Shown here: piece after piece, positions 6,276-37,195 of the stretch
Numbering within the stretch: the stretch's first letter is position 1
Layout of the letters: each line of letters starts with the position of its first letter
Assembly: GCA_963556145.1 (NCBI GenBank)
Contig: OY744469.1
Span: 2,356,001-2,420,000, forward strand
From: Hygrocybe punicea
Lineage: Eukaryota > Basidiomycota > Agaricomycetes > Agaricales > Hygrophoraceae
Direction: 5' to 3'
DNA length: 64,000 nucleotides
Position numbers and translations under genes: made by a program
Notes under the pieces: model-generated
Told to the model about the DNA's origin: nothing
The model's input: only the letters and a program-made list of their open reading frames with translations
Databases searched by the model: none

Positions 6276-7825
6276 TGTAGATGCGGGTTCTTGGTGGCTT
6301 CGGAACTATATATATTTCTTTATATAAAGAAATATATAAAGATCCTAACCTGTGGGTGTCAGCGTAGAAGTGACTGGATAAGTCAGTGTCGGGAATAGTA
6401 GTAAAAGAAAGGGATTGTTAGTAAAAGTAAAGCCACCACGTAAAACTGGACTAATAACAACGAATCCGGCAATGAACGGAGTGAAAACGGACAAATAATG
6501 AAGAACCCGACGATGCCGACGATGTCGGGTACGGCGGGTCAGGTCGGGTCAGGTCGGAAACAATGAACGAATATACGGGAACAACGATAAAAACGACGAA
6601 GTGGACTATAAAAAGCTAAGGGTCTACATGGACGAGCATTTGAAGGGATTAAAATGGTTCTGACTATGAGGGAAATGGGGACTAATGGTATCTTTTTTTG
6701 TATGGTCGTCGGGACCGTTTTTATAGTACAGGAGTGTGTAGCTACTTTTGGACATGTCTATTTCGGCCGATAGATACTACAAAGAAAAGATGGAATGGGG
6801 ATGTGGAAAAGGGGGGTTGCAAAGTGACATAGACAGGTAAATGGAGGGGAAAACAAATAAGCAAGGAAAAGATCTAGAAAGTCCTACATATCTCCGAAAG
6901 GACAAGGGGATGCATAAATATGGTAAGTCCGAAATCAGGGATTGACTCCGATGAGATCTGTTACGGATCGCTTCTGCAGCGGGCTCCGGCAACAATCAAC
7001 TTAACAGGGGGGCGGTTTCCAGAGGGAAGAACAGCAGTTTCATTGGTAGATAACACTGCTACAAGGGGGGAGGTTCATGGTCTAAAGTCATTGCGAGCCG
7101 TGGGGGTTACCCAAGACAAGGGGGTCTGCCCCAAGAACCAGACTAAACGTAAGGAAAAGAAAGAAGAAAAAGTCTGAACCAACAACAAGGACAGTAAATA
7201 TAGTGAATGGACTTGAGGGGAGGTAAATGGGAATCCAACCATGAAGCTACAACATGTCCAACTACACCATGTTTTCACCATGAGGCGGACATGAGGCATC
7301 CTCATGTCGATGTTCTCGTGATCCAACTGGAGGCCCGGGTGTCATTTAGGAATAGAGGGGGTCCGGATGACTCGGATGATTTGTCATCGGATCATGTGAT
7401 GTGCAGAATTGCCTATTCGGGGTCTACACTTGCTGTAACAGGCAAGTGTGCAGTCTGGCAAGTGCATTGCACGGTCGGGTCAAAGATGGGTATCGTCCAG
7501 TGTAGGATTGGTGATGAGAGTGTCTTGAGGTAGCGGGGACATAGCGACAAGGTCGGTATAAAGGAAAACAAAGGAATGTATGGAGGGAAAACCAACTAGG
7601 ATGGTGGGATAGTCAAGGTCAGACATGTGAACAGCATAAGCTGTACCGGATGATGATGTCTGTGTCGATGACGTATCAAGGAGCAATGTCTTGTCCTGTC
7701 TGTGGAACAATGTGCTCCACCTGATGTCGGTATTCATCCAAGAAAGGGTATTGTTGTAAACGAGTGTGGGAGATATCAAGGTTATAGATGGAAAAGGTTA
7801 AATGAATGTGGGTCCAGGTTTCGAG

Positions 7826-8050
7826 TCATAGCATGAGTGACAAGCTGTGGGAACAAGTCGTTGGGTACTGCATTGAAGCGGTGTCGTGCAAACAATATAC
7901 GATAGGGGTTGGTTCACTGTTTGGGAAGTCGTGTGGTCTGTGGTCGAAGTCAAAAAGAGTATGCTTCAGCGATGGTCGGATTAGAGAAAACAGTGAAATG
8001 TCTTGTGATCGGGGATTGTTCAGGGTTCGCATGCAGGTGAGGAATGTCAT
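7826..8050 (-). pseudogene. Element T copy 1, distal part of the T reading frame
   Basis: The frame starting at MTFLTCMRTLNNPRSQDISL is the counterpart of 49481-49699 in T copy 2. It keeps a shared segment ending in HDTASMQYPTTCSHSLSLM. In copy 1 the tnp2 transposon at 8062-14445 separates it from the N-terminal membrane-segment part (14682 down to 14518). Function unknown. Confidence 0.45.
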
Positions 8051-8621
8051 CGGATCGTCAGGCCCAGTGAAAAGTCCCTCGGCTGGGAAAGGGTGTGAGC
8101 AGCGGGGACCTGCATAGCCGTAGACAGCATGTATGGCTCGTCTTTTTACCGTATAGCATTTCTGAAAAGTTTAGGAGATGCTGTAAAAGGTCAACCTCGA
8201 GTGAAAATTTTCAGAGCATAATGTAGCCGTTCCCAGTCGAACCTGGCAATGTTTCCTTGTGTCCCGGCCTTCTCTTAAGTGAGCATAATGTAGAATGGTT
8301 GTATTGATTGCAAACGAGTGACATATAGTGTATAATGGTGGTATTGGGTCCGATCTGGTGTCTTCGTTTCTCCTCGTTCTGCCCCATTTGCCCCCGTTTG
8401 CCCCCGTTTGCCCCCGTTCCTTGTCTCCCCCTCATTTGCCCCCTCTTCTCCTCGTTTTCTCTCCCTGTCCTTGTTCTCCAAGCCCCCAGAATTGCCGTGA
8501 CTAGTGTACATGATCGATCGCATGCGATGGTGTGCTGTCTCCTGTATCATAGCCCGAAAGAATGATGTAAGTAGTAGTAGGAAGAGCCGACACGACTGAA
8601 AACATACCTTCTGTGATCAAT

Positions 8622-10956
8622 CTAAGTTGAAGCTGCGTTTTTCTTTAGTTTTTTCTGCAAAAAATTGCACAGTCAGTCTGTTAACACAGCCGGATATCAG
8701 AATTACTCACAAGTGCCTTTTCCTCATCTTTAAAATGCTATGCCAAGACCCGTGAGATCGGACAGTGGAAGAAATGATTCGGAGAAACGTACCTGAAGTG
8801 CCTGAGGTGACAAGCTCTTGAAATGAAGATTGAAATCACCCAATGTTTGACTCGGGTTATGGCTCTTCCATTCACGACCACAGATAGCCCTACGACGATA
8901 GTGAACATAGCAAAGTAGTATTTGCTAGATAGAATTGAGCAACTTACCTTGCTGTATTGCCCGTCGGAGCTTCGAAGATCTTCTCTGATGCAGGCATGGC
9001 CACACGTTTGAAAGGTGTCTTTCGCTTGCTTTTTGATGATGTTACTGATAACGAAGTCGCCGTGTCACCTGTAACAATCTCGTGTAGCGCTGTTGAGGCA
9101 ATGGGGCTGGTTTCTGTCCCAGTGACAGCAAGAGAGTCTGTTAATGCGGTACAGGGACGAAAAATATACCATACCAGTGAAAGAGGTTTCAGGTGTGTCA
9201 GTTGACGCGACGGGGATGGCTTGCAAGGCTGCGGATATGGCCGTGTTCGTCAATGTGATGGGCATGATTTGCGTTGGCGTAGAATTGCTCGTTGATGCGA
9301 CGGGAATGACTGGCAAGTGGATACGGCTGTGTTTGTCGACACAATGGGCGTGATTTGCGTTGGCGTAAGTGTAGAATCGCTCATTGATGCGACGGAAATG
9401 ACTGGCAAGGGTGCGGATATGGCCGTGTTCGTCGACGCAATGGGTGTGATTTGCGTTGGCGAAGAATTGCCCATTGATGCGACGGGAATGACTGGCAAGG
9501 GTGCGGATATGGCTGTGTTCGTCGACGCAATGGGTGTGATTTGCGTTGGCGTAGAATTGCTCATTGATGCGACGGGAATGACTGGCAAGGGTGCGGATAT
9601 AGATATGGCCGTGTTCGTCGATGTGATGGGCATGATCTGTACAGCAGTGCTAGTCGTCGAACAATGTCAGTACAACCTCTATAATGTCAATCCCATGAGT
9701 CGTTGGTTGCTACTAACAGTGGATTTAATGGCTGCAACCAGACATTTTGAGTTTGACGCAGACAATGAATTAATATTCTTACCACTATGATCTTGCCGGT
9801 ACTCTTGTTGGCATCACCCTCACTACCCTTGCCAACATTATTCGCATGGTGAGTTGTCTTACCATGTAACCTCTGCTTCTTGTGAGCAACTACATTTTCG
9901 TCATGAGAATATTTGCGCTTCTGACTTTCTTGGGTCTCGGTCTCGGTTTTCATAGTCTTCTCCTTGTTGCACAGAACTTTTTTCTCCCAATTACGTAGCC
10001 AAGATGGATAGTTCAGGATCCACACGTTGTCGGTTTTCCAGTGTCGAGAACAGAGTCGCAAAATGGGGAACTCCTTCTCCATCTCATTGCGATATTGCAT
10101 AAGATACTGGATATCAGCCATCTTGAAACCTGATGGAGGGTTACCAGCGCTCGCAAATGAGGTCCAAATCAATTGGGCATGGGAATACAATGCTCGACGG
10201 TCAGACTCGCTGATAGGAATGCCTTGGTCGTCTTCAAGGTAATCGGTAGATTTGATCTTCTTGCCAGCCACGTCGTCATCGTCACCTTGAATTGAAATCC
10301 CATCCTCTTGATCAACCCTATTTGTCCAAGATATCTTTGTCCACCATCGGACATTGGGATGGTCTACTTCGTCCAGGACAGTGGAAGTTGTGACAGTAGG
10401 AAAATTGTGGCTGTTTGACATAGCAATGGTGGCAGTAGCATTTGCGGGTGGATTGGAATGTCCGTGTACATGTGGTATGGCCTGTACGAGTAATTGATAT
10501 GCTTGCCTATAGAGATAGAAACGCATCAGAGATAGCGAGCGGAAAGATAATCACGCACTCTAACGTTGAAAACTTGACTTGTAATAACTCTAATTCTTTT
10601 CTAAGAGAAGAAACTCGTTGGCATTGTTGCATATATGCTGGGTTTGGAGCTGCCAGAAGGCTTTCGTGCGATGCGATTGATAAAAGATGATTATTTGATT
10701 TCCGGTTGAGAGGACTCCAAGTTGATAAACTTGATTGGCCAGATAACCCTGATAATCCCAGTGCATTGGAATTTACAAATTCAGAATGATTCTGACCGTT
10801 GTGGTGTTGATTTGCTGGTACGAAGCATGAGAGATTTGCATATGGTGTGAAGGGTGTGCTGGATTCGCTCTCAGAGGATAGGCTTTGCACTTCAAGTGAA
10901 TTTGAATAAGATGTTGGAGGATCGAAGGGAAAGGGTGACAAGAGTCTGAGCGACAT
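8622..10956 (-). CDS. tnp2-transposon accessory protein, function unknown
   Basis: A multi-exon gene on the transposase strand. Exon 1 runs 10956-10559 (MSLRLLSPFPFDPPTSYSNS), exon 2 from 10506 to about 9783, then a repeat-coding exon near 9612-8950, then ICGREWKSHNPSQTLGDFNL and a short lysine-rich end with stop near 8622. The central part (SGFKMADIQYLMQYRNEMEK, then HWKTDNVWILNYPSWLRNW) resembles proteins I recall next to tnp2 transposases in Agaricomycetes, though no function is established. A basic patch (QKRKYSHDENVVAHKKQR) could be a nuclear signal. The repeat exon has an apparent frameshift near 9316, so the copy may be broken. Later exon borders are approximate. Confidence 0.55.
9200..9625 (-). 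repeat. 90-bp coding minisatellite, about 4.5-5 units
   Basis: On the minus strand the unit translates as PVIPVASMSNSTPTQITPIA plus about ten more residues (30 codons). Units vary by synonymous and conservative changes and one contains a frameshift. It lies within an exon of the tnp2 accessory gene, so it lengthens a Thr/Ser/Pro-rich low-complexity stretch. Confidence 0.8.
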
Positions 10957-11062
10957 GAGAGGGGGGGAGGAAAGAACAGACTGTATGTCTATCAATATTT
11001 GCTCACTCACAACACAAGATATTCGTAGACAACCAAGGCACACATACATTATTCTGTACACA

Positions 11063-14000
11063 TTAATCAACATCGATATCCATTTCTGCAACATCATAGC
11101 CCAGATCTTCATACGAAAAGAAACAATTATGATCGACATCGGTGGGGGTCTCTGGAGGTGGAAAGGGGACCATAGAAATGCTGGACCGAATAAACTTGAT
11201 GTCGATGACCACAAGGTTGTTGTCGCCTCGGTATTTGCTAACAGACAGCACCCCATGCGAAGCTTTGTAGAGGTCAGGATCTGGAAGGTCAAACAGTGAG
11301 ACCAGGGCAACCCTTTTCCGATTCCCATCTACTGAGACGCTGAAGTAAAACTGGACTTCTCCCACCCGAATCACATTCTCCACTGTAAACTAAACAGTAA
11401 ATGTCAGCTACATTCATGAGAGACAAATTGGTATTCAGCCTACTGTGATGTTTCTCGTTCGTCGAGGTGTTCGTTTAACATTAGCCTCGTTCCACAGTGA
11501 CCTAGCAATTTGCCCATTGGGCAAACTGAGTCGCGCCCATCTTACTATAGTTCCATTCCATCGGGCAGGAGCCAATTCACCAAAGGTCCTGTGAAGATAT
11601 GTCCGGATAGCGATTGCTTCACATTCTCTGACGGAATGGGCTGATGCATCTCTTTTTCGAAGTAGAATGTATCCGTCACCAATATCAAGAGAACCACGAG
11701 GGATTGTCGGTTTTGGAGGTTCGAGATCAGGAAACATAGCCTTGAGTGCATTGGTTTGTGAACGGAGAAGACCACACTGGGCGAGGTTGGCATACGGATT
11801 GGAGGGTTGGCGCAGCTCTAGGCCAAGATTGCCAATTGTTCGCTCCATGACCCATTGCGCTAACAGTGCCAGTGGCCCAACTCGGAGAGTTTCGGGTGCA
11901 AAATGAGTGAGACAATGAATGCTTTGGCGAACAAAATGTAGTCGATCAGCTCGTCTTTGACAGTAGAGAACCTCAAATTCGACTGTGTATTCAAGAAGAT
12001 ACTGATGGGCCATCACAAGATCCGACTTGGATATTGATCGTTGTAGCATCAGGCGTACACCACGAACGAGCTTGCAAAAATGTTGCCAATAGGGGAATGG
12101 CAAGATTCGATAGAAAAGACCGGGGCCAAGGCCATACATATAGACGAGGAATTCTGAGGCTTTGTATCCACTGGATATTTTCTCGGCAGGGTTGCGAGGG
12201 GTTCAACCATAATGGCCAGGAATGTACTGCGCAGCAGCAGCAACGGCCTGGCCGTGTTGTTTCCATCTGTCTCCCTGAAGTGTAGCCCAATCCCATGTAG
12301 ACTTGTCGTCTGTTCGGTCACAATCTATCGTCCCACGATAGAGACCAAGCTTGACATCAGGAATGTTAAGACCTGTATGGTGCATCACATCGCCAGGGAA
12401 GCAACTAGGAATAGGGAGTATACGTGAAAGGCCGTCAACAATACTTGGTTTGCAGATTCCAGATTCACGCCGTCGCAGTGTGTATTGTGTTTGATTAGGA
12501 GACTGAATAACACGCTCGAGATTTTGACGATAGACCTGCGGGGATGCGGTTGGGAGATTATTGATATCGATGTCAGGGTGATCACAGCCAGGTGCATCGT
12601 AATTGTGAGGTTTCATCAAAGCGGGATAATAGTGAGTGCCGTGACCACCAGGCTTGTGACGACCAGGGAGCCCACATTGGAATCGACACCCGAACTTTCC
12701 ATGATGACCAACCCATCCAATCATATCGGCTAACCCAACGCAGTCAGCTGTGATGAATGCGACAAACACATTCGATGTGAGGCGAGCTTGACGTGAACCA
12801 TCCCAGATGACAAGACCTTCACGTTGAAGTGCCGAGACATGATATAAACCAGGGTATAAGAACGAATCCCGTTGCTTTGGATTATTGGGTCCCCCAATGA
12901 ATCCGCCAGGTAGGACATGCTTGACCTTATATCGTTTATCAGGTGCGAGGTTCAGGATCACCCAAATGTAAATCCAACAGTCGGACTTTTTGTTTCGATA
13001 TAGCTGCGCCCCATCGATGGAGAAGAGGACCACTGTATCATCAGGCTGGATTTGTTGGGTTTGAACGGCATGAAGATAATCACTACCACAGCAAAAATCA
13101 TCGTAGATATCGAGAGCACCACCATTGATGCGAAGGGTCTCCAAAATTTGATTTGTTTGTCGTTCACGATAACGCATAGCCTCCGCACTTGCTGGATTAC
13201 ACCATGCAGCCTGGAGCTGTGGACCGAGTGGTAGTGTAGAGAATTGTCGTCGGGGTACTCTTTCTTCCTCAGCGTCATCATCATCATCACCATGGTTGTC
13301 ATGGGTTTGCAGCTTGTTTTCATAGCGAGATTCTTTACAGATGGGACAGGTATCGAGGTTTTCGAAGGGGCCAGTGAACGCAAGGCAGGTGTTGATGCAC
13401 ATGTCATGATATAATGGCACAATGCCAGTGATGTGTTTGATGCGACGCTTTATTTGGTCATAGGAGAGAATTTTGCACTCGGGATAGCAGCGAGTGATTG
13501 CAGAACGGATGGCTTCATACGTATCCTGGGATGAATTTGTACAAGTGAGGAAAATGTCAAGCGAGAGCCGGAGGTATTGGTCCTCAAGCAAATTGGTAGG
13601 TATGGGGGTAGGGTTATGGAGACGGTCAATATCTTCTGCCTCAAGTTGAGAGTCTTCAAGTCTCGCCGCCTTGATATGCTCAATAAAATGGAGACTTGTT
13701 TGAACATCTTCAATTCGAGAGACGGGCGGGGGAAGAGGTGGAGCAGAGTCTCCAGGTATAGAGACATGGTCTGGATCACACCGTGGTGATCTGGGGGGTT
13801 CACTTGTGGGCAAATTTGGGTGAGATGGATTCATTTCCGTGTCATCGGTTTGTGGTACATAAAGATGGTCATCGTAGCCAAAATATAAATCATCCTGTAA
13901 TTCAGAGGGTCAGAATTAGCTTAGATTTGAGCACGATATATACTCACGTCGTAGTGTTCTTGTTCCTGTTGGACATCATCAACATCCCGCACATCCTCCA

Positions 14001-14250
14001 CCATTTGTACCTGATCCTGATCCTCCTGTCCCGTACGTGCAGCATCTCGTCTCCTTTGTACCGAACGAAAATCGGTTTCGGCCTGAGATTCTTGATCAGA
14101 ACGCTGAAGTCGAGCAGTTGTCTCAGTGGCAATGAATTCGTTGAAGGCTGTGGACAGTCTAGTCATCCGATATTTTGCATGTTGTCGGTAGGTCTTATCT
14201 GAGACGTCTCTTCCACCTTTGCAGAGCGCTGGGCAGTCACAGTACGGCAT
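11063..14250 (-). pseudogene. tnp2: tnp2 (Transposase_21) transposase with one internal stop
   Basis: Catalyses movement of the surrounding transposon. Exons are 14250-13948, 13894-11444 and 11389-11063, totalling 1027 codons. The N-terminal exon starts MPYCDCPALCKGGRDVSDKT, a Cys-rich opening followed by TYRQHAKYR, typical of the family. The core holds CPICKES, the VVLFSIDGAQLYRNKKSDCW block with acidic residues, and GHHGKFGCRFQCGLPGRHKP. The C-terminal part carries PRNPAEKISSGYKASEFLVY and a tail with LFDLPDPDLY. A single in-frame TGA at 12203-12205 stands before TPRNPAEK, where homologues have Arg, so a CGA to TGA change is likely. The rest of the frame is open, indicating recent inactivation. 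Confidence 0.88.
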
Positions 14251-14517
14251 AGGCAGGGAAGTAGGAGATCTCAGTTGATGGGCACAGCGTGAGAACCTTG
14301 GTTCAAAGTTTCATAAAGTATTGTAAGTTTCTAACGTCGTTTAACTAGTTGACGAATCGATCATAGACGAGGAGAGTCGTCTGACATATCAATCCCGTTG
14401 CAACCATTTCTTGCCCAGCACCAGCCGAGGGACTTTTCACTGGGCGTCAGGGAGGATAATGGTGGGCACAGGGTATGAATATGGAAACCAAATATCCGGG
14501 AATGGCAATTGTCAATT

Positions 14518-14682
14518 ACGTGTCGATATATTGTCGAGGTGGAAGTCAGAAGTATCAATGGCGGAAGGGTTTCAGTGCCAATGCCAAAGATAGATCATAA
14601 CAAGGTAGAAACCGATCAGGAAGGTGATGGCAATGCTGCCAATAACAATTACGGTAATGAGCTGTGTCGGGAGTACAGCCAT
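14518..14682 (-). pseudogene. Element T copy 1, N-terminal membrane-segment part of the T reading frame
   Basis: Opens MAVLPTQLITVIVIGSIAIT and encodes one long hydrophobic segment ending near YLW, then a polar tail ending in STRN. Copy 2 at 49238 encodes a close relative. Differences between copies are mostly third-position or conservative. Copy 1 has one internal TGA after WHWH. Both copies share a TGA after TRN, and the frame then continues across the tnp2 insertion to 7826-8050. Confidence 0.45.
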
Positions 14683-15289
14683 TGTGATCGGTTTGTTGTG
14701 GGATAGCGTAAACAAGATATCAAAGGGAAAAGACAATGTCGGTGACGTCCATCGGCAAGGAGACTATTCGGGTACAACAAGGTCACGTGGGATATGTCCA
14801 TGGTCGGTCTGGATTGTTCTAGAAGAAGGGACAAAAAGAGAACAAGAATAAGAAAATACAAGGATGTCCAAATGAAGAAACAATGACGTTGAAAGGAAGA
14901 CAAAGGACAAAAAGAAATGAAAAAGGAAGGTGTGCAGTGCAGAATCGTCATGGTGGGTATCGGAATGGGCATTGGGGTTGGAAGCGGAGTTGGAAACGTA
15001 ACAAGATCCATCTTCTACAATTGGAACTCCGAGGCGTTTGAGGCTGCCGGATTTAGCCCAAAAGCGGCCGTCACAAAGCGGCATGTGTCGGGTTACGTCG
15101 GTCACGTCGGGTCACGTCACGTCACGTCACGTCGGGTTACATCGGGTTCGAATGCAAGTCGAATGGCGGCATCGGGTTGGTCCGGATTCGTGATATATCG
15201 ATGATACGGACTCAGAGGGACGTCGACCCTCTACATCTCCAGGGTACTTTAAATAAAGACCATCCCTGGTCGATACTACGTGGACTCGG

Positions 15290-16083
15290 TGTAAAGGCGA
15301 GGTCGGGGTGGCTGCGGAATAATAATCCTAAGCCTGTGGGGGTCAGCGTGAAAGTGACTAGGAATAGTCTAACGAGCTTCAGTAAGATGATAGGATGTAA
15401 ATGATAAGAAGCCGCCAAGTAAACTACTGAAATCTATCGAGGCCGGTCGAAGCCGATGAAGCCGACGGTGTCGGGTACGGCGGGTCGGGTGTCGGGTGAC
15501 GAGAAACGTAGAGATTAAGACGGTAGAAGGACGGGGAGAGCGTCGAGGAAACCGACGAGTAGTGTGTGCAATGGATTTTACTGAGAGACTAATTCTCAGA
15601 GAGAGGAAACGGGGGAACTGGTTTCTTATTTTGAGACGGCGCTTGGGCACCGTTTTTATACTACAAATTTCTGTACCTAGATTCGGACGAGAGTCCTCGG
15701 CCGATGAGGGGAAACAAAGGAGAATAAAAATGGGGAAGTAGGAAGAGCGTTGCGAGGTGACAATGACAGGGAAAATGGGTGGAAGATATAAAAACCGTAA
15801 AAGATGCAATATACTTTACTATATCCCCATAAGGGAGACGCTAGGCGTGAATAAGGCAAGTCCGATGTCGGGATCCCAGTCCGATGAGATCTATCTTTGA
15901 TATTTGAAGTTCCGTGAGTTTAGGAGATAGACCGACCAGGTATGTGAGCGGCTGTGCTAGTCGGTATGCATCGGGTTGCGTCGGGTTGCGTCGGGTTTGA
16001 GCGTAGATTGCTAGAGACGTCGGGTTCGAGCGGATTCGCTAGATATCGATGTTACGGCCTCAGAGGGTCGAGGACCCTCTACA
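15290..16083 (-). repeat. 3' LTR of G1 (LTR family B)
   Basis: 794 bp, TGTAAAGGCGAGG to CCCTCTACA on plus. A solo copy of the same family, 795 bp, lies inverted at 42008-42802. On the element strand a TATAAAAACG box lies at 15660-15651. Upstream of it in U3 are repeats of the ACCCGACG type near 15965-16010. The element-strand sequence before the LTR is AAGGAGA, a short polypurine tract. The adjoining antisense gene starts 170 bp inside, so its promoter may lie in the antisense direction of this LTR. Confidence 0.88.
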
Positions 16084-16253
16084 TCTCCTTGGGTCTTCTA
16101 ATAGAGACCATCCGTGGTCGAGAATATGGGGTCTCCAAATGCGGGTCGCGAATGTGGCCAATCATGTGAGCGGCCAAACAACGGCAAAGTAAAAAAAATA
16201 AAAAAAATCTCGTTGTTGATCCGACCTTTCCTCTACACCATCACACGTCCACA

Positions 16254-17650
16254 ATGTCCCAAGTCTACGACAATTTCCTCGCCTTTGTCAAAAGCATCGA
16301 ACCCGATGTCCGGGCGGACTACGAAGAGGCCGTTAACACGGTCACCGTGTTTCACAGCGATGATCTCGTAACGATGGTGGACGGCAATGAGGGGATGGCC
16401 CAACAATGGTTAAGCGGCTGCAAGAAAGCGCTGGTGAGTTTCCCGATTGATTGCGCATGTCCTAAGATAGCTCATGTCGTCCCGCTAGCGTGCTTATAAT
16501 GGAATCGTCGTGGAACTCCGAGCTGGTGGTATGAGGCCAGTAACGCCACCGTTATGGGCCGACTGCCAATCGTACGCTAACGATGTCGAAGAGTGGCTGA
16601 AAGAAGCGGCGGACCGAGAGAGGCAGGAAAAGGAAGAAGCTAGATGGCGGGCAGATGAAGAAGTGGCTATGCGGGAAGAGGAGGCCAGACGGATGGCAGA
16701 GGCAAATGCACGAGCGGAGGCGGAGAAAAGGCGAAAGGCGGCAGAGGAAAGGCGGGAGTGGCTTAGAATAGAACAACACGAGCAGCACTGGAATCAAGAA
16801 GCGGACCGGGTTGAAAGGGATGGAGCTGCATATCAGCGGCGGCTCAGCGAAGAATGGCGAGCTGAAGCAAACACATCGGTCGTGGGTGAACCAAGGACTG
16901 AGTCGATTCCGGAAGGCGAAGCCGCAGTTGAGCCAGAGGAAGGCCCCGTCGACCCGGCACCAGAGACACCGGCCGATGTAGAAAACGTAGACACGCCGGG
17001 CGTAGAGACCGGAGACCTGGCTGGTACGATGGTGAGTTGCTGTGTCGGTTCATTTGTTCTTTAGTCACTGATCCTGGTAACAGTTCACCGGGCCGTTTCC
17101 CCTACAACCCTGCACCAACTGCGTCAAGGCTCAGGAGGCGTGTCGAGGCGTCACGGGCTACGTGTGTGAACAATGCCGGAGGCTGAAGAAAAGATGTACT
17201 AACGCCACACACCGGACGGGCGGGGGTCGGCGCAAGGTGGATACCGGGAAGGGGAAAGAGGTCGCGGTCGGCACGAGGAAGCCGTTGTCGTTCACGACAA
17301 AGCCAATCCGCAGTAGGCCTGCCTGGGCCTCAACGAGCAAACCGCGGGTCGAGGATGTGGAATCGGTCGAGGACGATGACGAAGACGAGGAGGAGTCGGA
17401 GGAAGAGCGGCCGACGAAAAGGCTTAGGGCGGCCTCGGCAGCAAACCCGTTCATTTTGACGATGGAGAATTACGAGCAAGTGTCGGCGCGGCTAGCGGTC
17501 CTTACGGAGGAGCTGGGAGCCCTGGGCACCAACATCAACCGTCACCTTGTCCACTTTGGTCAAGAGTTCCAGCGGCTCCGCGTCGATCTCGAACGGTCGA
17601 CCTCAAGGTTGGTGATGTTGAAGCGGGATTACGAGACTGGCCGCCTGTAA
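16254..17650 (+). CDS. Antisense accessory protein of G1: coiled coil plus Gal4-type Zn(II)2Cys6 cluster
   Basis: Three exons, 16254-16433, 16489-17031 and 17084-17650, give 429 residues with both introns in phase 0. Exon 1 encodes a helical module (MSQVYDNFLAFVKSIEPDVR to WLSGCKKAL). Exon 2 opens RAYNGIVVELRAGG and becomes a long Glu/Arg/Ala coiled coil. Exon 3 contains C-TN-C-VKAQEA-C-RGVTGYV-C-EQ-C-RRLKKR-C, spacing CX2CX6CX7CX2CX6C, which matches the fungal binuclear zinc cluster. An acidic stretch and a C-terminal coiled coil follow. It lies opposite to gag-pol, tail-to-tail with pol (206 bp between stops). The frame is intact although pol is not. A homologue with the same introns sits in G2. 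A DNA-binding or regulatory role is inferred, not shown. Confidence 0.8.
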
Positions 17651-17855: not shown

Positions 17856-20800
17856 TTAATCATCGTCGGGTGAGGAGTCTATAGAGGGCGGGTACGTCGG
17901 ATCATCAAGATCGTTTGAATTGGTATCGTCGGCATCGGGGTATTGTAAGAAGTCGTCCAACGGTATCGATATTTTTGAGCGGGCGTGGTAGGGTACAACT
18001 CAGAAAGCGGCAAATCGAGATTTAGAAACCGCACCGTCGAGTTCGGCGAGTATGTAGGATCCGCCTTCTGTTTTCCTGACGACAACCATGGGTCCAAAGT
18101 ACCGCGGTTTTGCTTTACGATCGAGAAACATTTCGATACGTGAATTTCGGACAAGAACGAGGTTACCGGGTTCAAAGTCGAAAACTTTGATCGTGTTGGC
18201 GTATTTCTGCTCGAATTGCCAGGCGGACGTGAGCCGAGATTTGGTAAGCTTTTCTTTGACCCGATTGAGGTCGGCTTCTCGTTTATGAAGTTGTCGGGCG
18301 CGGATGACTATGAGGTCGGTCGTAGACATCGTATCTTGCGTCGGAACCATGTACGTAGCTTCGGCAAAATCGAATGGAAAAAGCGGTTCTACTCCGTGTG
18401 CGATGTAGTAGGACGAGTATCCGAGGCTTTTGTGTGTCGTGACCCGTTCGGCCCACAATACGGAGTGGGTTACGGTGTGCCATTTCTTTTCATCTCCATC
18501 ACAACTTTTCATAATGGCCTCCCGGACATCTAGGTGGTGACGCTCAACGGGTCCGTTCACTTGTGAGTTATAGGGCGAAATGCGGATGTGGCGGATACCG
18601 TAGCGGGAGGCGAGATAGTCGAGCGCTTCTACGAACGGCTTGCCATTGTCGGTAACGATTTCTTCGAGAGCGCCCCAACGGCATAAGATGTCTTCGAACA
18701 GGAATGTGCCGATGGTCGAGCCGGTCTCGCAGCGTAACATGCGGAACTCAGGGTAAGCGGACAGGGAGCAACGGGCTTGGACAATGTATCGATAGCCGCC
18801 GGATCGTGGCATAAACATTGTGTCGACATACGCTTTACGAAATAGCGAGGCCGGTGTAGCGACGGTGGGTGGAATGTGATGATAACGCATTTGCCGTACT
18901 TGGCACTGATGGCAAGACTGGACGTACCACTTAACATCGTGGTCGAGGTGCGGCCACCAGAAACGGTCGAGTAGCCGGGCGCGGACGGAGAATATGCCTT
19001 TATGGCCAAGAGAGTCGTGAGCGTCTTTGAGTAATTGAAGCCGGCGGTTGGGTGGTATGACGAGTTTGTGTTTTCCGTGACGGTCTTTACGCCAAAGCTT
19101 GTTATCGGTGATGAAGAATTCAAGGGCGTATCGTAAGAACAGACGGTATTCTTCGTCCGTGAGGTTCACGGGTCGGGTTAGATCTCGTAACCAAGTCTCG
19201 ACGAGGGCAAGACGAACGTCGGCCGCGTGGGCTTTATCGGATCGCGGTATGTCAGAAACGGCTTCCTGATTTGTGTAGACGAGGACGGCCGGTAATTCTT
19301 GGAGTCGGTTGGCTGTGGCACGGCAGCGGCCGCATACGGCAATCGGCTTAGACGGTATGGGGACGGGTTGGTAGTTGACGACTTCCATAAAGAAAACGTA
19401 GGAGTGGTCGAGCCAATCGTCGGAGTCGTTGATCTCCTCGGGGTCTTCTGCAGCGCGGGGATGTTGGGAGAGTCCGTCGGGTGCACTGTGTGCGGAAGCG
19501 GGTACGTGAACGAGTCTAAAGTCAAATAAGAGCACGCCGGCTATCCATCGGTTGATCGTTGCATTGGGCTGAATGTCGGGGTTGTTGAGCATCCCTTTTA
19601 TGTACTTCGCGTCGACTTCAACGGTGAGGTTGCGGACGCCGATAATGAAAATCCGATAGGCGCGGAGGGCCCTGAAGAGACCGTAAAGCTCGAGCTTGGA
19701 CTGAGAGTATCGGGCTTCGCGTTCGTTCCACGATATTGAACCAAAACGATTCGGATAGCGCTTTCCGTCGGCGCGGATTTGCATAAGAACGAAGCCGACT
19801 CCAAGAACGGATGAATCGACAGCGAGAATGACCTCCCATTCACGCGTGTAATCGATAGCGCACAGCGCTGGTGATGAAATGACAGCGTTTTTGAGGTAGT
19901 CGACGGCGGTCTCTTCTTCTTCACCAAATTCGAAGGGTATACCTTTGCGGGTAAGACGGACGAGGGGTCGGGAGTGGAGCGAGAAGTCCTTGATAAAAAT
20001 ACGCAAGACGCCGCAGATACCGAGCAAGGCGCGAACTTCGGTGAGGTTGGTCGGCAGTGGCCAATCGCGAATCTTCTGTACTTTGGAGTCGTCGGCTACT
20101 CTTCCTTCGTATGTGCATCGGTGGCCAACAACGATGACTGAGGGTCGACACAACTCGAGTTTTTTGCCGTTGAAGGTACCGCCGACATAGCGGAAACGCT
20201 GGATGATGCGGTTGACACCTTGGAAGTGCTCCCAAATGAAATGTCGGATTGCTGGGTTCTCGGGTATAGTCTCGTAGGTACCATCGGGTTGCTCGTAGCG
20301 GGTTGGAGGCCCTTTGATGGGAATATCGTCCATATACGGAACGGCAAGATGAGGGATTTCGTCACGGAGGATGTACGTGGAGTCACCGTGTAGGATCTGC
20401 GGGGAATTTGTGTATCCCATAGCAATCCGCGTAAGTCGAAGCGTTCCGAGTGGAGACTGAAAGGTCATATAGTCCCGAGACGAGGGGTGGATGAGGCGTT
20501 GGTCGAAAGAGACGAAGAGGTCGAAGGAAGCGTAGCAAGAGTGGCCGCCAAAGGCCTCAGCCAAGTGCTCGGTCATGGGCGGTATGGCGGGATCGTGGAT
20601 AGTGATGGCGTTAAGCGGCTGTAGATCGTGGACAATTCGAAGAGACTTCCCATCCTTTTTCAAAACGCAGAACCAGCGGGAGCGGTATGACGAATTCGAG
20701 GGTTCATAGGTACCGGCGTTAATTTTGTCTTTGATGATGCCGATGACTTCGTTAAGGATGCCGGGTGGGATTGGGATATTGCGATGGACCCACGGGTCGT

Positions 20801-21404
20801 GCGGTACGGTGGGAATGTGGATTGGTGGGAAGTAGTCCGTATTGAACTGGCCTTTCTCGGATTCGTTCTAGGCGAAGGCGGCTTCTTGCGTTTTGATGAT
20901 ATGGTGGCTGAGTTTTTCTTCCTCAGGCCAAAGGAATCCATCCGGGTTCATCGGCATCGCGTCGTGTCGTTCCTGGGTATAGCGGGTGCCGGGTGTAAAG
21001 TCGGGCGGGTGAGTCGGGAGTGTGGGTAAATCGGCTAGCGGGTCGCCGGTGATCTCGCATATGATACAGTATTCGTCGGGGAGAGTGGTAGAAATTGGGC
21101 AGATACAATCGGCTACCTTCTTATACTTTTTCTTGGTAACGACTCCTTTTAGGTCCCTGGTAGGGGGGGTGGTATACGAGATATAAGTAGCGTGTTCAGT
21201 AGAGGCTTTGTTACAAATATTCGAAGAAGAAATAGGTGACGCAGGAGCGGAGACGGAACAAGACGAAGGAAGGGTATCGGTAGTACGTAGCTGATTTTGT
21301 ACATCGGTCAACAATGAAATGTACTGGGCGGCAGTCTGAGGCTGAGACGAAGAGAAATCTAAATTGATAGAAAAACATAAGTCCTCTTCTAGGGGAAACG
21401 GCAA
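17856..21404 (-). pseudogene. pol: G1 pol: reverse transcriptase, RNase H, integrase (two internal stops)
   Basis: The frame runs from 21404 to the TAA at 17856 with a TAG at 20868-20870 (in EAAFA*NESEKGQ, expected Trp) and a TGA at 18000-18002 (AAF*VVPYHAR, expected Arg). RT shows SSYRSRWFCVLKKDGKSLRI and the catalytic PYMDD. RNase H carries VILAVDSSVLGVGFVLMQ. Integrase has the zinc-binding HDSLGHKG..CHQCQ, then the triad residues in YVDTMF, VTDNGKPF and NGPVERHH. A GPY/F-like end follows, with no chromodomain recognised. It makes cDNA and inserts it; this copy would need both stops bypassed. It begins 101 bp after gag, in another frame. Confidence 0.9.
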
Positions 21405-21505
21405 AAGGGAAGCATAGTTCGTGGTATAGGTGTGGTCGCTTTCGAGTGGCGGCTTCTCATCTCCCGGTGCGTCCTTCCCGAGAGGTATCTCCGGGTCCTC
21501 AACTT

Positions 21506-23962
21506 CTAAAAATCCGGCTTTCCGGTGTCGGACCGCTCTCGTCGGTTCTTTTGGTTGTGCTCGATGGTGGGCAAGGTGACGACGGCGCCGGTGTTTGGAT
21601 CCGTGATCATGACTTGTTGTTCTCCGTTTTTATAATCCTTCGTAAGGGCCTCGGAAAGCGTGAAGAACGGGTGGCCGATGAGGATCTCGTAGGGGGCGTC
21701 ATCGACGACTTGGACTTGGAGGAAAAGATCGATGTCGCCAAAAGTGAATTTTAGGTTGGCGATCCGGCCGAGGGTGTCATTGTCGCTTTTATTTGCCGAC
21801 TGCATCCGCATCTTCATATTTTGGAGGCCGTAACCGAGTTTCTCCCAAATATCGCGCCGCATGCCGATGATCATGGAACCGTTGTCGAGGACGCACTCGA
21901 ATACGAATTTGCTGTTGATGAGCGGGTAGACCGCACGGAGAGGGACTGAGTCGCGGCCGACGACGAGTGGGACATTTTCCTGACAGTGTTGACAGGCGCG
22001 AGTGGGGATTTCGGGTGCGTGAAAATGGAAGACCTCGACGTTGTTACTCTTGGCGGTGACCTTTTTCGACGTAGTGAGGTCCTTCATGTGACGGCGGGCG
22101 TCAGACGACATGGCTAAAAGTTCTCGCTGCGAAATGCAGACTTGAGAATCGAGCGCGCGGTCGATGATGGATTTGGCGATACCGGGATCTTCGATGGGGG
22201 CTTGGTAGCGGTATTGGGGGTGCGATGCGGGAAGGTTCTGGGGAGTGCGCGGTACAAGGGCGGTCGGCTCGGTCGGCCGCGTGTTCGAAGGGGGGACTAT
22301 GGTGATCGGCTGCTCGTTGATAGGTCTGGCCGTTTTCTCGGCGGGTTTCGTGGCGGGGATGGATGTGGAAGTGGCAGGCGGATTGGGAAACATTTCTCTA
22401 GACTTGCCTTTCACCTTCGATGGGATCTCTACACCGTCGAATCTAACCCGTTTACGAAGCCGCTGCACTTCGGCTTCCAGAACCTTAATCTGTTCATTGT
22501 CGTCGTCGATGTCGGACGTCGTGGACTGAAAGATGTCGGCGTACTCGGTAGTGGCCTCTGGTTCGTAGGTGGGTACTTCGACGGTGGAGACGAAGTTAGC
22601 TTTGACATGAGGCAGCGGGTTGCGTTGGAACGGTTCTGTGGGGTTGCGGGCAGGGGGAGCGCGGTTGCCGGGGTTCTGTGCATGCCACGCGTCGAAGCGA
22701 TCCTTCATATTTTTGCCGACGATAGCCTTTGGAAGATACATTCCGTTAGGCAATACGATGCGGCCGTGCTCGTTCTTGCGGCATATCCCATCTCGAGTGT
22801 ACTGCTCGCAGATGGGACAATCGCGTATACGATGGAACGGGTCGTCGCAAAAGAGGCAGTTGAAATTGGTGAAACCCTGTCCCGCAGTGGTCGGCTCAGC
22901 CCTATTTGCACACGGCTTTGGGGGGTTGTTGCGTTCGGTGAGGGCTTGCGTGAGGACGGCGAGTTGTTGCGAAACGAGACGAAATAGGTCGGATACGTTA
23001 GGTTCGACCGGTTCCGCTTTAGGAATGACCGGGTCATAGCGAGCGGGTGGCGGGTAGCGGGTGGCGGGTTCTATTGGAGTCGAGTACCGGATGGCGGCAG
23101 GCGACGTTGACGATAGACGAGAGACGGTGGACGGTTTGGCCGCGGTTCCGGCCAGCAGGAAGTGGGTGCAATTGTGGAAGTCCTGGAAGTCGTAAGGGTC
23201 GCTATGGAAATGGTTCGGTTTTTGGTACTGCAGACGGGTTTTGATGTCCTTTTTAAGCTCGAGATGGAAGCCGTTCTCGTACGCAATGTTGCGTTCTCGA
23301 GGAGAGATTCGACCCTTGTCTAAGAGGAATCCCGAGATCTGAATGAACTCGCGGTAATATTCGCCAAGTTCGGCGCGGGTACGGATACCGTAAGCGGTTT
23401 GGGTGTGCGTAAGACGGTCGAGATCCGCCATAGTGTACCAGTGATCATCTTCCGTGCCCGGGTATAGCACGAGAACGCTCCTTTTGAATGCGGCATAATC
23501 GACGCCGGTCGCACTAGGTAAACTCGCCCATAGCTCGTAGTCGCTAAGCGATGCGTAGCGCAGACTATGCTTAATGCGTCCTGCGTCGTCGAGAGCGGCA
23601 TCGGCAGCAAGTATCTCGACTTCTTCGAAGAAGCGGTTTAAATTGAGCGGGTTCCTGTCGAAGGTCGGGGCCGTGGAGTGACCGCGAGCGGGCATCTGTC
23701 GAGGAGTAACATGGGGAACGGTAGCAGTCGAGGATCCGGCGGTCGAAGTCATTGTGGGTGGAGGGCGCTGAGATGTCAATGAAGCGGTTGTTGGGTGTAC
23801 GATGAGCGGGTCGGGTAACGTGGACGATGACGGCGTGGACAAAGACGAAGACGGGGACGATGACGGAGTTTTCAATGTCGAGAGCGAAGACGGAGACGAT
23901 GACGATGACGGAGTTTTCGATGTCGAGAGCGAAGACGTGGATGGGGGTTCTAACGAGGTCAA
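21506..23962 (-). CDS. gag: G1 gag with zinc knuckle and aspartic protease
   Basis: An intact 818-codon frame. About 100 residues of Ser/Thr/Pro-rich sequence precede the capsid-like part (TAPTFDRNPLNLNRFFEEVE, then YELWASLPSATGVDYAAFKR). The knuckle is C-LF-C-DDPF-H-RIRD-C (CCHC). Near the C-terminus a retropepsin-like region has FVFECVLDNGSMIIGM, with Asp-Asn-Gly rather than the usual Asp-Thr/Ser-Gly, then EILIGHPFF. Gag packages RNA in virus-like particles and the protease cleaves the polyprotein. The capsid region is clearly related to the G2 gag at 35024-36703. The Ser/Pro-rich start coincides with GAC-type repeats in the DNA, so the true start may be further in. Confidence 0.87.
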   Translation of the reverse strand: MTSLEPPSTSSLSTSKTPSSSSSPSSLSTLKTPSSSPSSSLSTPSSSTLPDPLIVHPTTASLTSQRPPPTMTSTAGSSTATVPHVTPRQMPARGHSTAPTFDRNPLNLNRFFEEVEILAADAALDDAGRIKHSLRYASLSDYELWASLPSATGVDYAAFKRSVLVLYPGTEDDHWYTMADLDRLTHTQTAYGIRTRAELGEYYREFIQISGFLLDKGRISPRERNIAYENGFHLELKKDIKTRLQYQKPNHFHSDPYDFQDFHNCTHFLLAGTAAKPSTVSRLSSTSPAAIRYSTPIEPATRYPPPARYDPVIPKAEPVEPNVSDLFRLVSQQLAVLTQALTERNNPPKPCANRAEPTTAGQGFTNFNCLFCDDPFHRIRDCPICEQYTRDGICRKNEHGRIVLPNGMYLPKAIVGKNMKDRFDAWHAQNPGNRAPPARNPTEPFQRNPLPHVKANFVSTVEVPTYEPEATTEYADIFQSTTSDIDDDNEQIKVLEAEVQRLRKRVRFDGVEIPSKVKGKSREMFPNPPATSTSIPATKPAEKTARPINEQPITIVPPSNTRPTEPTALVPRTPQNLPASHPQYRYQAPIEDPGIAKSIIDRALDSQVCISQRELLAMSSDARRHMKDLTTSKKVTAKSNNVEVFHFHAPEIPTRACQHCQENVPLVVGRDSVPLRAVYPLINSKFVFECVLDNGSMIIGMRRDIWEKLGYGLQNMKMRMQSANKSDNDTLGRIANLKFTFGDIDLFLQVQVVDDAPYEILIGHPFFTLSEALTKDYKNGEQQVMITDPNTGAVVTLPTIEHNQKNRRERSDTGKPDF

Positions 23963-24790
23963 AGTCGGGGACGTAGGCGATGCGGGTGTCGAACTGAGAT
24001 TGGATGAGTCGGGTGTAATGGTAATTATCGGTATATCGACCGATTCGAGACTGTCGGATGAAAGATATAGGGGGGTGTTTGACCCTGAGACGAGCGGGAG
24101 ATTGTTATGTCGAGCGAGGTGGTCGGGTACTAGCTGGAAGAAGTCGTTGTCGATTGTCGGGTCGAAGGCGGCTAAAGAGAGTTCTTGTTGAAGAGTTCTT
24201 CGAGGAAGATCTCGAAGACGACGGTCAGAGGGAGGGATACGGGAAGAGGAAGCTATGCTGGTGCTAGACTATTCCTCGTGGTGGGCTCCAGATGTAAAGG
24301 CGAGGTCGGGGTGGCTGCGGAATAATGACAACGGGGACGGGAACGACGGGGACGGCCAGCTAGGGGACGACAGGACGACGCAGATGACGACGACCATCCA
24401 TCGGACGACGAGGACTACAGCAGATGACAACGACAACGACAACGATGACGACGACAAGAGGAATGATGGGAACGGGAACGACAGGGACCGGAACGGCGTG
24501 GACGGGGACGGGGACGGGGACGGGGATGGGGACGGGGACGGGAACGAGGGGGACGAGGATGGCGGAGACGTAGACGAAGACGACGAGGACAACGGGAACG
24601 TATGTACAGTCCACTCTCCTCCCTCTCTCCCTGTCCCTCTCCGTCTCCGTCTCCGTCTCCGTCTCTGTCTCCCTCCCTTCCCTGCTGCCTTCCCACCTTC
24701 CCTCTTCTCCCACTCCCACTCCACTCCCACTCCCTTCTCCCACTCCCACCTTCCTCCCACTCCACACCCACCTATCTTCCTCTCACCTGC
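23800..24790. repeat. GAC/GGGGAC- and CTCC-rich simple repeats around the lost 5' LTR of G1
   Basis: Apart from the short LTR remnant at 24291-24324, this stretch is dominated by GAC-type repeats (24325-24600) and a pyrimidine-rich run (24605-24790). ORFs in all frames here are low complexity and I reject them as genes. The LTR match stops abruptly at 24324, so the repeat has replaced most of the LTR. Confidence 0.75.
24274..24290 (-). promoter_or_regulatory. tRNA primer-binding site of G1
   Basis: On the element strand the LTR end (CCTTTACA) is followed after TC by TGGAGCCCACCACGAGG. The leading TGG pairs with a tRNA CCA end. G2 has TGGAGCCCACCGCGAGG at the same place, one base different. 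I cannot name the tRNA from the sequence alone. Confidence 0.7.
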
Positions 24791-25185: not shown

Positions 25186-26265
25186 ATGTTTGGAACATGA
25201 AATACATGCAGGCAAAGTGGGATGTGATGCAAGCCTGTCGACCGACATGAGCCCACATTGCAGCAAGAGCTGGACGCTGGTCAACCCAATGCTGCAGGGA
25301 GAGCTGGGCCAGGGTCAACCCATTTCTGCAGCAAAAGCTGGGCATGGCAACGCAGTGCTGGAGCAATAGCCAGACCCTGGTGAACCCAAGCCTGCCCCAT
25401 CAGTGGGTCCAGGATCAACCCAATGGTGCAGAACGAGCTGTGCCCCTGGCAACCTATCCTGCAGCAAGTGCTGGACCTGGGTCAACCCAGTGCTGCAGCA
25501 ATAACTGGCCCTGGGTTGACCCGGTGCTGCAGCAAGAGCTGGGGCCAGGTCAACCCAGTGCTGCAGCAATCGCTGGCTCCCGGTCAACCCAAGCCCTGCA
25601 GCAGGTGCTGGACCTGGGTCAACCCAGTGCTGCAGCAATAGCTGGATCCTGGTCAACCCAAGCCCTGCAGCAGGTGTTGGACCTGGGTTGACCCAATGCT
25701 GCAACAAGAGCTGGACCTGGGTTGACCCAATGCTGCAGCAAGAGCTGGGCCCAGGTTGACCCAGTGCTGTGGCAAGAGCTGGGACCAGGTCAACCCCATG
25801 CTGCAGCAATAACTGGCCCTTGGTTGACCTGGTGCTGCAGCAAGAGCTGGGGCCAGGTCAACCCAGTGCTGCAGCAATCGCTGGACCCCAGTCACCCCAC
25901 CCTCCAGCAAGTGCTGGGCCCTAGTCAACCCAGTTCTGCAGCAACAGCTGCATCTAGGTCAACCCCAGCCTGCAGCAAGAGCTGGACTGGGGTCAACCCA
26001 GTGCTGCAACAATAACTGCAGCCAGGTCAACCCACATGGCTTGAACAGCTGGGCCTGGGTCAACCCAACCATCCTGGAATAGCTGCCCTGGGTTAACCGA
26101 CTCCATGGCAGAGCTGACACCAGGTTGACCCAACCAGCCAGCCTTGACCAGCAAGAGCTGTACCTGGGTCAACCTACCACACCACATTTCCCCAGCAAGT
26201 GCTGTCTTTTGGGTTAACCTAACCCCCCAGCAAGCAACTGCGCTATGTGTACCTACCTTTTGCAA
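25186..26265. repeat. 34-bp tandem minisatellite, about 30 degenerate copies
   Basis: A unit near TGCTGCAGCAAGAGCTGGGC plus CAGGTCAACCCAG recurs about every 34 bp for some 1.1 kb. Copies vary, mainly between CAAGAGCTGG, CAATAACTGG and CAGGTGCTGG variants. It abuts the truncated start of the right LTR of element A. ORFs through it exist in several frames, as expected for a repeat rather than a gene. Confidence 0.85.
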
Positions 26266-26306: not shown

Positions 26307-27194
26307 GGTTCTTGGTGGCTTCGGAACTATATAAAGAAATATATAAAGATCCTAACCTGTGGGTGTCAGCGTAGAAGTGATTGGATAAGTCAGTGTCGGG
26401 AATAGTAGTAAAAGAAAGGGATTGTTAGTAAAAGTAAAGCCACCACGTAAAACTGGACTAATAACAACGAATCCGGCAATGAACGGAGTGAAAACGGACA
26501 AATAATGAAGAACCCGACGATGCCGACGATGTCGGGTACGGCGGGTCAGGTCGGGTCAGGTCGGAAACAATGATCGAATATACGGGAACAACGATAAAAA
26601 CGACGAAGTGGACTATAAAAAGCTAAGGGTCTACATGGACGAGCATTTGAAGGGATTAAAATGGTTCTGACTATGAGGGAAACGGGGACTAATGGTATCT
26701 TTTTTTGTATGGTCGTCGGGACCATTTTTATAGTACAGGAGTGTGTAGCTACTTTCGGACATGTCTATTTTGGCCGATAGATACTACAAAGAAAAGATGG
26801 AATGGGGATGTGGAAAAGGGGGGTTGCAAAGCGATATAGACAGGTAAATGGAGGGGAAAACAAATAAGCAAGGAAAAGATCTAGAAAGTCCTACATATCT
26901 CCGAAAGGACAAGGGGATGCATAAATATGGTAAGTCCGAAGTCAGGGATTGACTCCGATGAGATCCATCTTCTACAATTGGAACTCCGAGGCGTTTGAGG
27001 CTGCCGGATTTAGCCCAAAAGCGGCCGTCACAAAGCGGCATGTGTCGGGTTATGTCAGTCACGTCGGGTCACGTCACGTCATGTCACGTCGGGTTACGTC
27101 GGGTTCGAATGCAAGTTGAATGGCGGCATTGGGTTGGTCCGGATTCGTGATATATCGATGATACGGAAACTCAGAGGGACGTCGACCCTCTACA
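26307..27194 (-). repeat. Right LTR of element A (5' LTR in element orientation), truncated by about 10 bp
   Basis: Matches the left LTR (6276-6958 plus 15009-15235) nearly throughout, from GGTTCTTGGTGGCTTCGG to CCCTCTACA. It shows what the left LTR looked like before element T entered at AGATC. On the element strand it carries a TATAAAAA box and, in U3, the TCACGTC-type array near 27055-27105. Confidence 0.88.
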
Positions 27195-27198
27195 CCGT

Positions 27199-34829: not shown

Positions 34830-34831
34830 AC

Positions 34832-34848
34832 TGGAGCCCACCGCGAGG
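34832..34848 (+). promoter_or_regulatory. tRNA primer-binding site of G2
   Basis: TGGAGCCCACCGCGAGG begins two bases after the LTR. It differs by one base from the site in G1, so both elements probably share a tRNA primer. Confidence 0.7.
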
Positions 34849-35023
34849 AGTTTATTTCTTTTGTCTTTTCATACCCTCCCCATGGTCGGCTTTGACTTTC
34901 ATGACGTTTCCCTCTTCTACCTGACTCTAGTTATTTAGTTCCGCTTACGACTTCGACCTCGACCTCAAACCTCCTCGACCTGACCTGCTTTCCGACCCGC
35001 ATCCCGATTTAGACATTCCCGAT

Positions 35024-37095: not shown

Positions 37096-37195
37096 ACGTG
37101 GTGATGAGAGCGAACTTCGACACCCACGCCATCTGAACGCTTCCCACAGAACTGAGCACCGAGCACCGAGCACCGCGAACTGTGAACCGAGTACC

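Follow-up and report, generated by a model that had tools for sequence, protein, structure and literature searches.

We report that a fungal Ty3/gypsy lineage carries a predicted accessory protein-coding gene antisense to its own genes, as shown by the structure and position of this gene, its copies, the selection acting on it and its counterparts in related families. The gene was found in the window (the whole 64 kb stretch of DNA that was analysed) inside an element that we call G1. With a probability of roughly 0.55, we read its product as an element-encoded nuclear regulator that would bind DNA in the element's own LTRs.

A predicted spliced antisense gene next to the G1 3′ LTR

The earlier note on this DNA described an intact three-exon antisense gene beside the G1 3′ LTR, and the extent, the number of exons and the product length that it gave agree with those listed here.

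15290-16083, minus strand: G1 3′ LTR (TGTAGAGGG...TTTACA in element sense), with limits taken from a solo copy and two longer copies elsewhere
16084-16253, plus strand: LTR-to-ATG segment of G1, 170 bp, putative antisense promoter or 5′ leader and, on the opposite strand, presumed polypurine tract
16254-17650, plus strand: G1 antisense gene, three predicted exons, 429 aa
16254-16433, plus strand: exon 1, 60 codons
16434-16488, plus strand: intron 1, 55 nt, GTGAGT..TAG, phase 0
16489-17031, plus strand: exon 2, 181 codons, with (by eye) the end of the N-terminal module, a charged coiled coil and an acidic/proline linker
17032-17083, plus strand: intron 2, 52 nt, GTGAGT..CAG, phase 0
17084-17650, plus strand: exon 3 and stop, with the zinc cluster, basic and acidic tracts and a C-terminal helix
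17111-17197, plus strand: zinc cluster of the antisense protein (CTNCVKAQEACRGVTGYVCEQCRRLKKRC), six cysteines, each in 36 of 36 copies
18000-20867 and 20868-21629, minus strand: G1 pol, with RNase H, integrase H2C2 and rve (Pfam) in 18000-20867
21506-24268, minus strand: G1 gag/protease frame, CCHC knuckle at residue 471

Because the 3′ LTR occupies 15290-16083, the antisense ATG lies 170 bp inside the LTR border. The gene runs opposite to both gag and pol of this Ty3/gypsy element, which are on the minus strand. The two stops that the earlier note counted in pol are only roughly right, as we found one internal stop (20868) and a change of frame from gag. The G1 copy of the window is inserted within a satellite LTR element, A, and is truncated, with ~34 bp of its 5′ LTR left near 24293-24326. 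Two G1 copies extended across gag carry an LTR at either end, the two pointing the same way; they are 98.4% identical over 795 bp in one copy, and in the other the match covers part of the LTR.

Copies throughout the genome are conserved and under purifying selection

We searched the genome (92.2 Mb, 42 contigs), which by its gene structure and types of element looks like that of a basidiomycete, with the gene as DNA and with the exon 3 protein. The DNA search gave 265 candidates, of which 40 were scored, all full length and 94-100% identical; the protein search gave 483 candidates, and the 150 scored were 90-100% identical over 187-188 of 188 residues. The 38 G1 loci sampled came from 36 distinct places, since the window and one other were represented twice. 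For codon analysis, L001, L009 (the window, used once under that name) and L023 (a duplicate of L006) were omitted, leaving 36 distinct sequences. Since 30 of the 38 loci were picked as the best exon 3 protein matches, the sample favours a low rate in exon 3; exons 1 and 2 were not used in the choice.

All 36 distinct sequences, including that of the window, have GT at both donors and AG at both acceptors, and the antisense coding sequence is intact in 25. Intron length varies by at most 1 nt, exon variants are 9 nt long and in frame, and one copy has a frameshift. Third codon positions differed from the majority sequence by 3.4%, first and second positions by 1.6 and 1.2%, and the two introns by 4.6 and 3.3%. 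Variants common to at least three copies, which we took as mostly predating insertion, had a nonsynonymous to synonymous ratio (N/S) of ~0.5 of expectation overall. The coiled coil stood at 0.82, whereas exon 1, the first 100 residues, the zinc region, the linker and the C-terminal part each gave 0.31-0.39. Singleton variants gave an N/S of 0.6 overall, also below 1, perhaps because sub-lineages are short or because the best-matching loci had been chosen.

The earlier note made its idea depend on homologues beside other gypsy LTRs and on selection on the cysteines, and both were found. Each of the 36 distinct places has pol downstream in the opposite orientation, and 34 (all but L007 and L036) have an LTR upstream of the antisense gene in register. 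Each of the six cluster cysteines is invariant in the 36 sequences, whereas positions 56 and 86, which hold the only other cysteines of the window's protein, are cysteine in 2 of 36 sequences each and arginine in 34 and 33, respectively. These sequence comparisons confirm the predicted G1 antisense gene as real, conserved, coding and under purifying selection; chance is excluded because copies across the genome keep the splice sites and the cysteines, and most of them an intact frame.

A pol-less family keeps gag and the antisense gene

When the window was searched by tblastn with the G1 product, a further gene appeared on the minus strand (E values 3e-12 and 2e-9). It runs from 47203 to 44616 or beyond and belongs to a family that we call G2.

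34232-36950, 44594-44960 and 46263-48127, plus strand: G2 element, its pieces parted by inserts
34232-34829, plus strand: G2 LTR (5′ part)
34931-36703, plus strand: G2 gag-like frame
47530-48127, plus strand: G2 3′ LTR, with a GATTCCG/CGGAATC array at about 47610-47709
47033-47203, minus strand: G2 antisense gene, exon 1
46366-46983, minus strand: exon 2
from 46313, minus strand: start of exon 3, which is split by an insert at about 44961-46262
36949-44597: nested gypsy-type element with unusually short terminal direct repeats (151 bp, 99% identical)
about 42008-42805: solo G1 LTR, interrupting this nested short-repeat element

Intron 1 of the G2 gene follows the codon equivalent to that of G1, again in phase 0. 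Searching the genome with G2 exon 2 gave 325 candidates; the 150 scored yielded 178 matches, with 62-100% identity among the matches listed. A full three-exon model was obtained at 24 of 28 modelled loci (none at L052, L053, L058 and L061), and exon 3 was open for at least 160 codons at 13 of the 28. Intact products have ~455 residues and the cysteine spacing of G1, and are 28% identical to the G1 protein over its whole length. In the alignment of 28 sequences each donor is GT in 27 and the acceptors are AG in 26 and 27; of the cysteines, the six of the cluster persist in 23-26 sequences and two others in 4 and 6. Median pairwise omega, for pairs with dS between 0.05 and 2 (315-378 of 378), was 0.37 in exon 1, 0.21 in the N-terminal part of exon 2, 0.37 in the rest of exon 2 and 0.24 in exon 3, where the figures include damaged copies because all 28 loci were retained. 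Purifying selection, the outcome on which the earlier note's proposal of dN/dS across families bears, is thus indicated for G2 (medians 0.21-0.37) as for G1 (~0.5).

Two G2 copies read end to end (L079 and L080, at the places of L044 and L042) are ~4.9 kb long and consist of an LTR, a gag-like frame, the antisense gene and an LTR, the gene lying antisense between gag and the 3′ LTR. The G2 gag capsid core is 46% identical to G1 gag, and neither of the two copies gave a match to either pol query. We considered whether the pol at 37-44 kb of the window was G2's own and rejected this, as it sits in the nested element with 151-bp repeats, which is absent from six other G2 loci. Lacking pol, G2 would therefore move with borrowed pol while keeping its own gag and antisense gene, which hints at the two proteins that such an element must itself supply.

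Two side observations concern G2 copies. The ~1.3 kb insert at 44961-46262 that splits the window's G2 antisense gene appears hAT-like; by eye, it has inverted repeats at its ends and a duplication of 8 bp (CCGCCAAC). At G000:C35:1851215-1869162 (L057 and four repeats), five copies of the G2 antisense gene recur at a regular spacing of 4334 bp, as tandem LTR-element units.

Metagenome relatives and a third family

A profile of exon 3 (12 G1 and 13 G2 sequences) searched against a collection of 5.8 billion proteins found four metagenome proteins, P0001-P0004, all on JGI contigs. P0001 and P0002 are 85 and 76% identical to G2, P0003 is 35% identical to G1 and 45% to G2, and P0004 is 65% identical to G1 in the C-terminal part only. 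Searches with the full-length protein (7994 candidates scored) and with the zinc region (9 candidates) gave no relatives. Through P0003 we found a third family in the same genome, G3, with 18 of the 150 matches listed being 59-76% identical to P0003. At two G3 loci (L087 and L088) the end of exon 1 and the cysteine spacing are as in G1 and G2, and pol is on the opposite strand; exon 2 is open in L088 and out of frame in L087. The second intron at both loci seems, by eye, to be 45 nt long and open in frame, so that its retention would lengthen the protein.

Cysteine spacing is identical in G1, G2, G3 and P0001-P0003, while exon 3 identity between families ranges from 27 to 43%; the G2 and G3 antisense proteins are 43% identical. 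G3 and G1 are 76% identical over the last 334 residues of pol but only 32% in exon 3 and 27% in exon 1 of the antisense gene. The antisense gene therefore diverges faster than this part of pol, despite purifying selection within families.

The zinc cluster resembles Zn(II)2Cys6 domains with its units probably reversed

By eye, the G1 protein consists of an N-terminal module that spans intron 1, a charged coiled coil, an acidic/proline linker, the zinc cluster, basic and acidic tracts and a C-terminal helix. Zn(II)2Cys6 proteins have the spacing C-X2-C-X6-C-X5-12-C-X2-C-X6-8-C. Cysteines 251, 254, 261, 269, 272 and 279 fit the pattern C-X2-C-X6-C-X7-C-X2-C-X6-C given in the earlier note and fall within this spacing class. 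A six-frame regular-expression scan of the 64 kb found no further such pattern outside a cysteine-rich low-complexity translation at 52.8-54.5 kb.

The description of the cluster as exactly Gal4-type held for the spacing class but not for the order of the units. Zn_clus (PF00172) was the top Pfam match of the whole G1 protein, at 12.6 bits, below the cut-off of 21; trimmed 47-aa pieces scored 21.6 bits for G1 and 20.1 for G2, and P0001-P0003 scored 9.6-14.1. In both G1 and G2, the second half of the cluster (CEQCRRLKKRC in G1, on positions 2-14) matches the profile within positions 1-15, where an ordinary Zn(II)2Cys6 domain begins, and no Zn_clus match was obtained with the first cysteine unit alone. 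In P0001-P0003, too, the second unit is the stretch that aligns best, with weak scores (E 0.05-1.4), and phmmer pairs the second unit with the first unit of AlcR at E=0.56, a level that unrelated proteins reach as well. These alignments suggest to us a Zn2Cys6-like cluster whose two units have swapped places.

Structure prediction of the cysteine region, which the earlier note had proposed, gave a model of low confidence. The AF2 model of exon 3 (25 sequences; mean pLDDT 60) places helices after both CxxC units at pLDDT 54-64, the range of the cluster as a whole, and a single helix at exon 3 residues 122-184 (protein residues 363-425), with pLDDT 86-96 from residue 131 on. Foldseek found no match to the exon 3 model in the PDB, and a sequence-profile search of the PDB gave chance matches only.

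Motif arrays in U3 are candidate target sites

Zn(II)2Cys6 proteins bind triplets of the CCG/CGG class, and short motifs that contain such a triplet are clustered 30-180 bp inside the U3 end in G1, G2, G3 and satellite A.

15971-16026: G1 U3 array of four TCGGGTT (AACCCGA in element sense) at 15971, 15981, 15991 and 16020, proposed binding sites
15471-15497: distal TCGGGT group of the G1 LTR, at 15471, 15485 and 15492
26307-27199, minus strand: satellite A LTR, with an ACCCGAC array in U3

In LTR coordinates, AACCCGA is found at 58, 87, 97 and 107 in G1 and at 31, 50, 79 and 152 in G3. The G2 array is GATTCCG/CGGAATC at 81, 110, 122, 133 and 173. Satellite A has ACCCGAC at four places, which is G1's motif, and an A-like LTR at 53 kb has AACCCGA four times. 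All of these array motifs contain CCG/CGG. The arrays precede a sense TATAAAA at LTR position 424 (G1) or 331 (G2); the array of the 3′ LTR also lies upstream of the ATG of the antisense gene. The 17-mer AACCCGACGNAACCCGA occurs 1261 times in the genome, compared with 0 for its reversed control.

The 7-mer clusters of G1, A, G2 and the 53-kb LTR were each reached by 0 of 500 dinucleotide-preserving shuffles, and those in the first 310-320 bp of G1, A, G2 and both G3 loci by 0 of 1000; the cluster width was fixed after G1, A and G2 had been seen, and G3 was examined later as a check. With 6-mers, the G1 and A clusters were reached by 14 and 15 of 500 shuffles, and those of G2 and the 53-kb LTR by 0 of 500. 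TCGGGT occurs 7 times in the G1 LTR (0.5 expected) and 10 times in gag-pol (5.5 expected). CGGGT occurs 43 times in G1 gag-pol, compared with 17 expected, so the motif bias of the LTR is partly shared.

The proximal array varies in size among 35 G1 copies (4 motifs in 16, 3 in 12, 2 in 5, and 5 or 6 in 2). Non-CpG sites of the array were invariant at 20 of 20 positions, compared with 356 of 404 elsewhere in the LTR, a difference that is not significant (P=0.085). Of six diverged G2 loci whose U3 was fetched, four had a G2-type U3 with 2-4 GATTCC/GGAATC motifs; the others had unrelated DNA (L051) or a G1-type LTR (L058). Motif and protein divergence are out of step, as G2 and G3, with proteins 43% identical, have different motifs, whereas G1 and G3, at 32%, share one. 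We regard the arrays as circumstantial support for a regulatory role, which the earlier note had put forward and which we infer; they could also serve host factors.

Proposed function and alternative explanations

In our proposal, the antisense gene would be transcribed from the 3′ LTR side and its RNA then spliced. The orientation and conservation of the introns suggest that they survive retrotransposition, presumably because genomic RNA carries them in reverse and unspliceable. The protein would most likely enter the nucleus, dimerise through its helical segments and bind DNA through the zinc cluster. Its proposed targets are the CCG/CGG-containing U3 arrays; that of the 5′ LTR precedes the sense TATA box, and that of the 3′ LTR precedes the antisense gene. 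Bound there, the protein might regulate both sense and antisense transcription of its family, by activation or by escape from silencing. Searches within ~1.5 kb inside the LTR found no antisense gene at 9 of 9 satellite A loci besides the window's own, and A may borrow the regulator through the same array. A fuller version, to which we give slightly short of even odds, combines an LTR-specific regulator, its zinc cluster having reversed halves, with the U3 operator array into one control module acting in trans. In this version the module would be re-tooled from family to family; the pol-less element would have retained it, and satellites that lack the gene would exploit it.

Other roles are less probable. 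An anti-silencing factor of the VANC type, which would bind its family's motif arrays and strip or block silent chromatin in place of ordinary activation, appears unlikely, although it has points in its favour: family-specific arrays of short motifs in non-coding terminal DNA resemble VANC targets (PMC5735166; PMC10398659), and the divergence of G1 LTR CpG sites outside the array (4.6%, compared with 1.5%) is consistent with methylation. No result here separates activation from anti-silencing. Somewhat less probable again is a partner of Gag, binding nucleic acid for packaging, reverse transcription or integration targeting, in which the zinc cluster would replace or supplement the CCHC knuckle. 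G2 does keep gag together with the antisense gene, and the gag region of three G2 copies (L079, L080 and the window's) gave no match to the CCHC pattern, which G1 gag has once. However, G1 has both the CCHC knuckle and the antisense gene, antisense transcription would uncouple the protein from Gag dosage, and the basic CRRLKKRC helix and the similarity to Zn_clus point to DNA.

The codon-position bias, invariant cysteines, in-frame 9-nt variants and conserved splice sites argue against a further reading, in which the antisense RNA alone matters, through dsRNA or siRNA control, and its open frame has no function of its own. For other elements, control by non-coding antisense RNA has been discussed (PMC7264820), but the selection results largely refute this reading for G1 and we consider it very improbable. 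Capture of a host gene, which the abundance of Zn2Cys6 genes in fungi might bring to mind, and chance overlap in a single copy have next to no probability; they are ruled out by copy number (at least 150 exon 3 matches), orientation (antisense to pol at 36 of 36 places) and selection, and homologues occur in two further families.

Comparison with known systems

Gal4 and AlcR (PF00172) share with the G1 protein two CxxCx6C units, a basic segment of the CRRLKKRC kind, possibly dimerising helices and CGG-type candidate sites; the G1 protein differs in its reversed units relative to the Pfam profile, its low score and its location in a retrotransposon. HBZ of the retrovirus HTLV-1 is a nuclear bZIP regulator whose antisense gene is spliced and read from beside the 3′ LTR; the G1 gene shares the orientation, the proximity to the 3′ LTR and, as predicted, the splicing, and the likeness is one of analogy only.

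Contrary to the earlier note, antisense genes in LTR elements are not exceptional: antisense ORFs have been described for the plant elements Grande, RIRE2, Retand and PvRetro13 and for fungal Boty, and these sources give their function as unknown (PMC7264820; PMC11963269). The plant ORFs likewise lie between pol and the 3′ LTR in many copies, some members are non-autonomous, and a regulator has been proposed, for Retand with a predicted DNA-binding TRP28 domain (PMC11963269; PMC7264820). What sets the G1-G3 type apart from the plant group is its pair of introns, the zinc cluster of six cysteines, the arrays in U3 and the existence of a family that has no pol yet retains gag and the antisense gene. 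The protein is also a different one: the TRP28 domain (PF04195) was not among the Pfam matches of the G1 protein at E values up to 10, a range in which the HMMER filters drop most weak matches. The position of the gene is that of the aORF-3R class (antisense between pol and the 3′ LTR) at all 36 G1 places, with an LTR upstream at 34, and at both G3 loci; it is coding in most copies and is no one-off capture.

Among fungal elements, Boty of Botrytis reportedly has an antisense gene named brtn, attributed to Zhao et al. in 2011. This gene is placed between pol and the 3′ LTR (PMC7264820; brtn also in PMC8365987), so that the likeness to G1, compared by description, is that of a fungal LTR element with an antisense gene in this position.

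VANDALs, the elements that encode VANC anti-silencing proteins, are plant DNA transposons. Like the G1 protein, VANC is element-encoded; its targets are arrays of short motifs that differ between related families and form rapidly diverging tandem repeats (PMC5735166; PMC10398659), to which the U3 arrays, as candidate targets, would be comparable. Our searches of the open-access literature turned up no account of a zinc-cluster gene placed antisense in a fungal LTR element. As far as this literature shows, what is new is a zinc-cluster protein in an antisense role, the introns, the reversed cluster, the family-typical U3 arrays and retention of the gene with gag in a pol-less element. The antisense protein offers a recognisable domain of nucleic-acid-binding type, measurable selection, three diverged family versions and candidate sites of a few bp in its own LTR; hence the idea of a self-encoded transcription or anti-silencing factor is directly testable in yeast with short DNA.

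CpG divergence and the satellite element

CpG sites of G1 LTR copies are ~3 times as diverged as other LTR sites (4.6% and 1.5%), which suggests cytosine methylation of these LTRs. The satellite LTR element A, within which the window's G1 copy is inserted, spans 6286-27199 and contains 34-bp tandem repeats at 25259-26132. Its left LTR is split by a DNA transposon.

about 6286-6958 and 15004-15235: other (left) satellite A LTR, in two parts
about 6959-15003: tnp2-type DNA transposon within this LTR
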